Position numbers and translations under genes: made by a program. The notes under the pieces were generated by a model. That model worked only from the letters and a program-made list of their open reading frames with translations. It did not search any database and was not told the DNA's origin. From positions 1 to 36,509 of the forward strand of contig JAAZOM010000025.1 in assembly GCA_012797775.1 (NCBI GenBank): a DNA stretch of 36,509 nt. The letters are read 5' to 3'. The first letter of the stretch is position 1. Every line of letters starts with the position of its first letter. Shown piece by piece: positions 35,371 through 36,453 of this stretch. The stretch comes from Candidatus Kuenenbacteria bacterium. GTDB taxonomy: Bacteria > Patescibacteriota > Patescibacteriia > UBA2196 > GWA2-42-15.

Positions 35371-35733
35371 ATGGCCAAAAAAGTATTAATAATTGAAGAC
35401 GAGCAAACACTAGTCAAGGCATTGGAGCAGGTGCTGAAAGAGAAAGGTTATGATATTGAAGTCGCCATTGACGGCGAGGAAGGTTTTAAAAAAATCGTTT
35501 CTTTCGAGCCCGATTTAGTTCTCCTTGATCTTATTTTGCCAAAACTTGATGGCTTTTCTGTTCTTGCCAAGATGAAAGAAGCCGGCCTGACAGGCAAGAT
35601 CCCTGTTGTTGTTATGACCAATCTTTCTGATGTCGGTGACAAAGTACTTTCTCTCGGGGCTGATAAATGCTTGATAAAATCTGACTTATCGGTTGATGAG
35701 ATACAGGACGTAGTCCACGAAAAATTGCAATAA
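35371..35733 (+). CDS. Single-domain response regulator (tandem copy 1)
   Basis: The 120-residue receiver has acidic pocket Glu9-Asp10-Glu11, phosphorylation site Asp53 (LVLLDLILPKLDG), Thr83 (VVMTNLSD) and Lys103 (CLIKSD). No output domain. It lies 14 nt before a second receiver with the same N-terminus (MAKK-LIIEDE), which indicates tandem duplication followed by divergence. No histidine kinase is beside the pair, so the phosphate donor must be elsewhere, possibly the kinase at 23236. Confidence 0.93.
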   Translation: MAKKVLIIEDEQTLVKALEQVLKEKGYDIEVAIDGEEGFKKIVSFEPDLVLLDLILPKLDGFSVLAKMKEAGLTGKIPVVVMTNLSDVGDKVLSLGADKCLIKSDLSVDEIQDVVHEKLQ

Positions 35734-35747
35734 TTTATTTTTATTAT

Positions 35748-36119
35748 ATGGCAAAAAAAATTCTAATCATCGAGGATGAGGTGGCTTTGGCCGATGCTAT
35801 GAAGGTTGGTCTTACGGATGCTGGTTATGAGGCCGATACCGCCTATGACGGCGAAGATGGCATGGTCAAGGTCAAAAGCCTTACTCCCGATCTTGTTTTG
35901 TTGGACCTGATGCTACCCAAAAAAGATGGCATGACTATTTTGAAAGAGATGCGCGCTGATTCTGCTACCGCCGACATCCCCGTCATGATCCTATCTCAGC
36001 TCTCTGACACAGAAAAGATTAGTGAGGGCGTTTCCCTTGGGGTGGTTGGTTATTTGGTAAAGGTTGACTTTAGCTTGGCCGAGGTGGTTGAAAAAGTAAA
36101 AAAAGCCCTAGGTGATTAA
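35748..36119 (+). CDS. Single-domain response regulator (tandem copy 2)
   Basis: The 123-residue receiver has Glu9-Asp10-Glu11, phosphorylation site Asp53 (LVLLDLMLPKKDG), Ser83 (MILSQLSD) and Lys105 (YLVKVD). No output domain. It is closely related to the gene 14 nt upstream and shares its promoter. A terminator follows 21 nt after its stop. Confidence 0.93.
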   Translation: MAKKILIIEDEVALADAMKVGLTDAGYEADTAYDGEDGMVKVKSLTPDLVLLDLMLPKKDGMTILKEMRADSATADIPVMILSQLSDTEKISEGVSLGVVGYLVKVDFSLAEVVEKVKKALGD

Positions 36120-36140
36120 TGCTAATAAATAGCTACAATA

Positions 36141-36164
36141 GGCGGGTATTTTCCCGCCTTTTTT
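36141..36164 (+). terminator. Rho-independent terminator after the tandem receivers
   Basis: GGCGGG (36141-36146) pairs with CCCGCC (36153-36158) around TATTTT, then six T. Confidence 0.92.
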
Positions 36165-36177
36165 ATTGAACACTTGT

Positions 36178-36206
36178 TTGTTTTTAGTAATTAATGATAC
36201 TATATT
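36178..36206 (+). promoter_or_regulatory. Promoter of the tRNA-Pro region
   Basis: TTGTTT (36178-36183), 17 nt, TATATT (36201-36206). The predicted start falls near 36213, exactly the first base of the tRNA-like fragment. Confidence 0.55.
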
Positions 36207-36212
36207 TTATAT

Positions 36213-36281
36213 CGGGCTGTGGTAGTTTAAGGGCCACGGTGTGGCGCTTAAACGGATTACGCACGTTTCGGTGCGTTGCCC
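36213..36281 (+). pseudogene. Truncated, re-folded tRNA-Pro 5'-half copy
   Basis: It shares with the intact tRNA-Pro at 36301 the first 12 bases (CGGGCTGTGGTA), then ACGG-ATTACGCACG and TTCGG-TGCGT of the anticodon arm. About 24 extra bases sit in the D loop, forming a long hairpin GTTTAAG/CTTAAAC (36225-36231, 36247-36253) with inner GCCAC/GTGGC. The anticodon loop has lost one G, and the variable region, T arm and 3' acceptor strand are missing. GCCC (36278-36281) instead pairs with GGGC (36214-36217), giving a closed three-arm fold. It cannot be a normal tRNA. Confidence 0.6.
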
Positions 36282-36300
36282 AATATTTATTAATTTTTTC

Positions 36301-36374
36301 CGGGCTGTGGTATAACGGTATTACGCACGCTTCGGGTGCGTGTAATGGCGGTTCAATTCCGCCCAGCCCGACCA
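36301..36374 (+). tRNA. tRNA-Pro, anticodon CGG
   Basis: A complete cloverleaf: acceptor CGGGCTG/CAGCCCG (36301-36307, 36364-36370), anticodon stem CACGC/GCGTG with loop TTCGGGT and anticodon CGG at 36333-36335, T arm GGCGG-TTCAATT-CCGCC (36347-36363), discriminator A and encoded CCA (36372-36374). The C1-G72 pair and A73 are bacterial tRNA-Pro identity elements. It reads CCG codons. Confidence 0.95.
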
Positions 36375-36398
36375 GATTAAACTTTTTTCAAATTCAGA

Positions 36399-36453
36399 GG
36401 CGTTTTGTTGCTCGCTCGCCCCGCCTTCGGCGGGTCTCGCTTCGCAAAAAGCC
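36399..36453. repeat. Imperfect palindromic repeat element
   Basis: CCCGCC-TTC-GGCGGG (36420-36434) is a perfect hairpin. Outer arms GGC-g-TTTTG (36399-36407) and CAAAA-a-GCC (36445-36453) also pair. Between them are CTCGCTCG and CTCGCTTCG, near-direct repeats that do not pair. The type (GCGAAGCGAG next to a CCGCC hairpin) is familiar from CPR intergenic regions. The rest of 36375-36509 holds no gene I can support. Confidence 0.6.

Follow-up and report, generated by a model that had tools for sequence, protein, structure and literature searches.

In the Candidatus Kuenenbacteria genome analysed here (G000; 930 kb, 31 contigs), an intact tRNA-Pro gene is directly preceded by a second, incomplete tRNA-Pro sequence. 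The question is what this partial copy represents: an RNA with a role of its own, a duplicate in decay, or the trace of a process that acts on tRNA genes. The window, i.e., the whole stretch of DNA that was analysed, is an entire 36.5-kb contig that ends 135 nt past the intact gene, and all features described below lie on its forward strand. Upstream of the tRNA sequences, the ORF list contains a tandem pair of response-regulator-like genes. The first (35371–35733), whose homologue at the same locus of the sister species G001 is 82% identical, serves as a synteny marker. The second (35748–36119) has counterparts ahead of tRNA-Pro(CGG) or its copy at the loci of G001, G003, and G036, with tblastn identities of 89%, 71%, and 39%, respectively. 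The closest relatives of the response-regulator gene are CPR/Patescibacteria entries (Paceibacterota, Terrybacteria, and Nealsonbacteria), in line with a patescibacterial genome. An intrinsic-terminator-like hairpin (36140–36159) lies 3′ of it; the scan found one such hairpin versus 1.2 expected by chance. The intact tRNA-Pro(CGG) gene (36301–36374) has an encoded CCA and was identified by ARAGORN, by Rfam (60.2 bits), and in a tRNA census. This census covered 51 tRNAs with 47 anticodons in G000, and just one tRNA-Pro with a CGG anticodon was present among them.

As originally predicted, a 5′ copy of tRNA-Pro that contains a hairpin in its D loop and lacks the T arm abuts the intact gene, as both the spliced alignment (score 20, 39 aligned positions) and the fold confirm. 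Positions 1–12 of this outer, displaced copy (36213–36224) match the intact gene at 12 of 12 positions. They are followed, in the D loop, by a 29-nt hairpin insert (36225–36253) of the palindrome family GTT...C(A/G)GTG...AAC. The copy continues with the 3′ side of the D stem and the anticodon arm (36254–36277, corresponding to tRNA positions ~17–41), where 25 of 27 aligned positions agree with the intact tRNA; the anticodon loop is one base shorter and re-registered. It ends with GCCC (36278–36281), and an AT-rich spacer of 19 nt (36282–36300) leads to the intact tRNA, with which the copy shares the same acceptor 5′ strand. The copy was found once in G000, and an Rfam search on it returned only the intact tRNA above threshold. 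Covariance models of group I and II introns gave no match at gathering score in the window. No GIY-YIG gene lies at the locus, nor is the 3′ part of an old tRNA visible up to the contig end.

The predicted fold of 36213–36281 consists of three arms, as had been proposed, with −31.9 kcal/mol versus −22.0 kcal/mol for shuffled sequences (z = −3.4); for the hairpin alone, z is −4.2. In this fold, GCCC pairs with 36214–36217, as expected for the re-closed stem of the original prediction, but the novelty of the closure is doubtful. When the copy's 3′ TTGCCCA is compared with the native acceptor 3′ strand CAGCCCG, five of seven pairs are left. GCCC is plausibly the native acceptor 3′ strand from which the T arm was deleted, so that the closure may be inherited and not new. 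The GGGC/GCCC closing stem was sought in the available relatives and was not found there. The claim that the copy is driven by a promoter with its start at 36213 is weak: no site passed the sigma-70 scan, and the possible extended −10 element TGATACTAT (36195–36203) was picked by eye and is absent from the consensus matches of that scan. The terminator scan detected none between the copy and the intact tRNA; thus, the copy would belong to the 5′ leader of the tRNA.

When 56 related genomes were searched, the sister species G001 proved to have this copy too, again beside the response-regulator gene. In addition, tRNA-Pro(GGG) and tRNA-Pro(TGG) of G001 and tRNA-Pro(GGG) of G008 are preceded by related copies whose D-loop hairpins are homologous, and each Pro copy of G001 matches its own isoacceptor. 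Between G000 and G001, the copy is identical at 53 of 58 positions, whereas the four-fold sites of the adjacent gene are identical at 20 of 44, i.e., near saturation. The hairpin, which is absent from the intact tRNA, is itself identical at 25 of 29 positions. Compensatory changes were found in this hairpin: across five D-loop hairpins and two other family members, 8 of 13 pairs changed on both sides, while none of 500 shuffles was as good and slid registers failed. This conservation, together with the covariation, argues that the window copy is not freely decaying and thus runs counter to the dead duplicate that had been suggested as one option. Besides selection, the same effect could arise if the copy was recently acquired by horizontal copying or if the intact tRNA homogenised its tRNA-derived parts, and two genomes do not separate selection from repeated copying. 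Just past the tRNA-Pro(CGG) copy of G001, at the end of contig C21 (L003/L115), the sequence is GC-rich and different-looking, possibly a chimeric end.

The hairpin family also occurs elsewhere. It is present in the variable region of a tRNA-Lys copy of G000 and, inverted, in the apparent anticodon loop of a tRNA-Met copy; G001 has it in a T-arm context, and G003 outside any tRNA. Such a spread over various loops and both orientations is more easily reconciled with mobile palindromic DNA than with a dedicated part of an RNA. Two further ideas about the hairpins were rejected. The apex CACRGTGTG is not a high-copy repeat, as its four matches in G000 do not exceed those of a control pattern and the other three are non-palindromic. 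Y1 transposases, the movers of REP-type palindromes, number three in G001 and none in G000, and their absence from the latter argues against them as movers of these hairpins. A double-hairpin sequence like TCTCTACGAGACATTCCTCAAAGAGGGACA repeats in the anticodon and T loops of unrelated tRNA copies (L113, L114, L164, and L171).

Interrupted copies are present at many other tRNA genes. Each surveyed tRNA was aligned to its own flanks with long inserts allowed, and a same-strand copy with a score of at least 14 was taken as positive. By this measure, 49 of 138 loci were positive, versus 0 of 138 in the reverse-strand control. G000 and G001, which belong to the same genus and were sampled at nearly all tRNA loci, account for 38 positives among 89 loci; the other genomes of the set were picked via tRNA-Pro and are biased. 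Positive loci numbered 11 of 31 when fetched via GIY-YIG genes (partly overlapping the first set), two of six among named CPR loci, and none of 47 in Firmicutes. The tRNA-derived parts of the copies are 94.2% identical to the intact tRNA. The inserts fold significantly in 26 of 34 cases (p ≤ 0.05), mostly as hairpins, and show a modest preference for loops (30 of 49 versus 19.9 expected, p = 0.002 by a rough test). Some loci have complementary flanks on both sides of the intact tRNA, but this is not general (10 of 49 versus 4 of 81 loci), and none of 15 interrupted loci showed a group I or II intron. A duplication of another kind lies downstream of tRNA-Asp (L165 in G000 and L172 in G001), where the tRNA 3′ end and its tail recur 142–224 nt downstream and enclose GC-rich sequence that is seemingly conserved between the two genomes.

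At several loci, an intact tRNA is nested inside a broken one: tRNA-Arg in G046, tRNA-Ile in G027, tRNA-Ile and tRNA-Thr in G001, tRNA-Pro in G017, and tRNA-Ile in Ca. Nomurabacteria. The clearest case, the tRNA-Arg locus of G046 on a 744-kb contig, reads in order positions 1–36, half a palindrome, the intact tRNA, the other half of the palindrome, and positions 37–74. Here and at tRNA-Pro of G007, all pairs of the outer acceptor stem are formed although both of its strands have changes relative to the inner stem, indicating that the inner tRNA at these two loci is not a simple tandem copy. Frequently, the inner tRNA is exactly identical to the outer copy. In G041 (L016/L136), three tRNAs are apparently nested: a tRNA-Pro on the outside, another tRNA (CGGGGAT...ATCCCCGA) in the middle, and an intact tRNA-Pro within; long inverted repeats separate the layers.

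Clean sites were found in relatives. A cluster of tRNA-Ile, tRNA-Phe, and tRNA-Pro is compact in G000; in G001, it is interrupted: the gene order is unchanged, and each of the three genes has a copy or remnant. In G036, the two response-regulator genes are followed by tRNA-Pro(CGG) without a copy. The clean cluster of G000 and the G036 locus indicate that the insertions have been gained or lost within the genus. The other two tRNA-Pro genes of G000 have no copy either. Most of these genomes are metagenome bins; the number of independent bins and the long contigs argue against assembly error.

At a number of loci, the old 5′ part and the intact tRNA are separated by a PF01541 (GIY-YIG) gene of about 70–130 codons, and four of these genes were confirmed with Pfam. 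G000 and G001 gave 15 matches, two UvrC-size ORFs (445 and 448 aa) being left out. For 13 of these 15 small genes, a tRNA on the same strand is no more than 150 nt away, and 12 of the 13 are directly upstream of it. Class-wide, 10 of 28 best-match GIY-YIG loci are within 150 nt of a tRNA. Binomial p values are about 1e-15 for the two genomes and 1e-9 class-wide, with background rates assumed from about 45–50 tRNAs/Mb.

The explanation that we favour, with a little more than even confidence, is that 36213–36281 represents the 5′ part of the resident tRNA-Pro(CGG) gene, displaced when a homing-like insertion brought in a replacement tRNA. Insertion elements would repeatedly break tRNA genes in this lineage and leave a complete replacement tRNA each time. 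Full versions of such an element consist of the old tRNA 5′ part, a small GIY-YIG gene, a complete tRNA, and, in some cases, the old tRNA 3′ part, with palindromic hairpins in the old loops. The endonuclease would cut an uninterrupted tRNA gene, repair would then copy the element into the cut site, and the replacement tRNA, transcribed from the promoter of the old gene, would keep the cell alive. The window copy may be an endonuclease-less, one-sided version, with a D-loop hairpin and a T-arm deletion, that ended up in the 5′ leader of the tRNA; an endonuclease gene may formerly have been present at this locus, and the copy would now be without function. That the event was one-sided is suggested by the apparently native 3′ flank of the intact tRNA. 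Copies at many isotypes, often with a GIY-YIG gene, point to an insertion process on tRNA genes generally and not to a Pro-specific regulator, and the same observation speaks against an aid in processing this tRNA, which the original prediction had considered. Several points count against the favoured explanation, among them the one-sidedness of the event and the lack of a GIY-YIG gene and an old 3′ part at the window locus. With the inner tRNA often identical to the outer copy, the resistance of the element to its own endonuclease is unexplained. In addition, the conservation of the window copy relative to four-fold sites exceeds that expected of a relic, unless the copy was recently copied or homogenised.

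This excess conservation also supports an alternative that we regard as unlikely, in which the copy is a maintained, tRNA-like, cis-acting leader RNA. Folding together with the downstream tRNA or in competition with it, the leader would govern how that tRNA is processed or how abundant it is. The covarying hairpin pairs and the lack of a terminator before the tRNA fit such a leader. So does the minimum-energy fold of a longer transcript, in which acceptor strands are swapped and the first seven bases of the copy pair with the 3′ acceptor strand of the intact tRNA. Yet, such a leader is missing at the other two tRNA-Pro genes of G000 and in G036, its closing stem is unseen in relatives, and hairpins of this family occupy different loops in the copies of other tRNAs, once reversed.

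Somewhat less probable still is that part of tRNA-Pro was simply duplicated in tandem and that the upstream copy is decaying. Since the window has neither a GIY-YIG gene nor a 3′ part, such a duplication would look alike at this locus, and the one-sided arrangement with its apparently native 3′ flank, the deleted T arm, and the altered anticodon loop are all compatible with it. However, conservation in the sister species with compensatory changes is at odds with decay, and a tandem duplication leaves the nested loci, the non-identical inner tRNAs, and the GIY-YIG association elsewhere unexplained.

An integration scar at tRNA-Pro, left by a genomic island or phage, is improbable. The 3′ flank TTAAACTTTTTTCAAATTCAGAGGCG (36377–36402) recurs right after tRNA-Pro in G002, G008, G010, G013, and G045, and the tRNA 3′ end may be the target of some element too. 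Integrases normally duplicate the tRNA 3′ end, whereas the copy is a 5′ part, lies upstream, and carries a hairpin insert; no duplicated 3′ end was seen here, and 50,697 phage records gave no match. As separate observations, tRNA-Pro genes with different anticodons in several genomes (L264, L266, L267, L268, and L265) have TTAAACTTTTTTCAAATTCAGAGGCG or a close variant of it immediately after their CCA; it also follows the outer 3′ half in G045, and the same sequence stands after GCGACCA without a tRNA in G002:C8 (L269), maybe the end of an integrating element. Least credible is the decoy RNA of the original prediction, acting in trans on prolyl-tRNA synthetase or RNase P, because the compact predicted fold and acceptor-like closing stem that recommend it come with no T arm, an altered anticodon loop, and no terminator of its own, while the closing stem is missing in relatives and similar copies occur at many isotypes.

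Tentatively, and at slightly below an even chance, the insertion reading may extend to a widespread class of minimal homing elements in Patescibacteria. These would target many tRNA isotypes, carry their own replacement tRNA and a single-domain GIY-YIG protein, and leave nested tRNAs and conserved tRNA-like relics, some of which, e.g., the window copy, may be kept as leaders. Although tRNA genes are indispensable and, in these reduced genomes, mostly present in a single copy, they are apparently favoured by mobile DNA. If true, the proposal would extend a break-and-replace strategy of fungal mitochondria to bacterial tRNAs, assign a role to many small GIY-YIG genes of Patescibacteria, and offer a tractable system for hairpin invasion of structured RNA genes. 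For annotators, tRNA fragments in these genomes are not random pseudogenes.

The open-access library that was searched yielded no report of interrupted or nested tRNAs, or of GIY-YIG genes linked to tRNAs, in CPR/Patescibacteria; this is no proof of novelty. Within the same bacterial radiation, CPR rRNA genes are known to contain many inserts, mostly at the top or base of stem-loops, some with GIY-YIG genes and resembling neither group I nor group II introns (PMC11270868). The loci studied here are alike in that structural RNA genes are hit and GIY-YIG genes occur in the inserts; they differ in that the main text of that report is without tRNA and its available part describes no replacement gene copy. 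Mitochondrial repetitive hairpin-forming or double-hairpin elements are short, structurally diverse palindromes that lie between genes and insert into them (e.g., PMC2800124), whereas the present hairpins reside in tRNA-derived copies in bacteria. As in the tRNA introns and split tRNAs of archaea and eukaryotes, the anticodon, D, and T arms are interrupted; in contrast to those cases, each locus also has a full tRNA without interruption, which makes splicing unnecessary.

A further comparison is with the mORFs of fungal mitochondria (Allomyces atp6; Glomus atp6, atp9, cox2, and nad3), in which an endonuclease gene and a replacement gene end are inserted together; the native gene end is left as a relic, and the Glomus atp9 case uses a GIY-YIG enzyme (PMC3630166). 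In the present case, bacterial tRNA genes are hit, often a whole tRNA serves as the replacement, and the relic, which contains hairpin inserts, often lies upstream. A foreign, diverged replacement piece of the mORF type fits tRNA-Arg of G046 and tRNA-Pro of G007, whereas at the window the two copies share their acceptor 5′ strand. The window locus, where the endonuclease is absent, is not claimed to be of the mORF kind. Other tRNA loci do combine an endonuclease gene with a replacement piece, and, as with mORFs, the native piece is kept as a relic and uninterrupted alleles exist in relatives.
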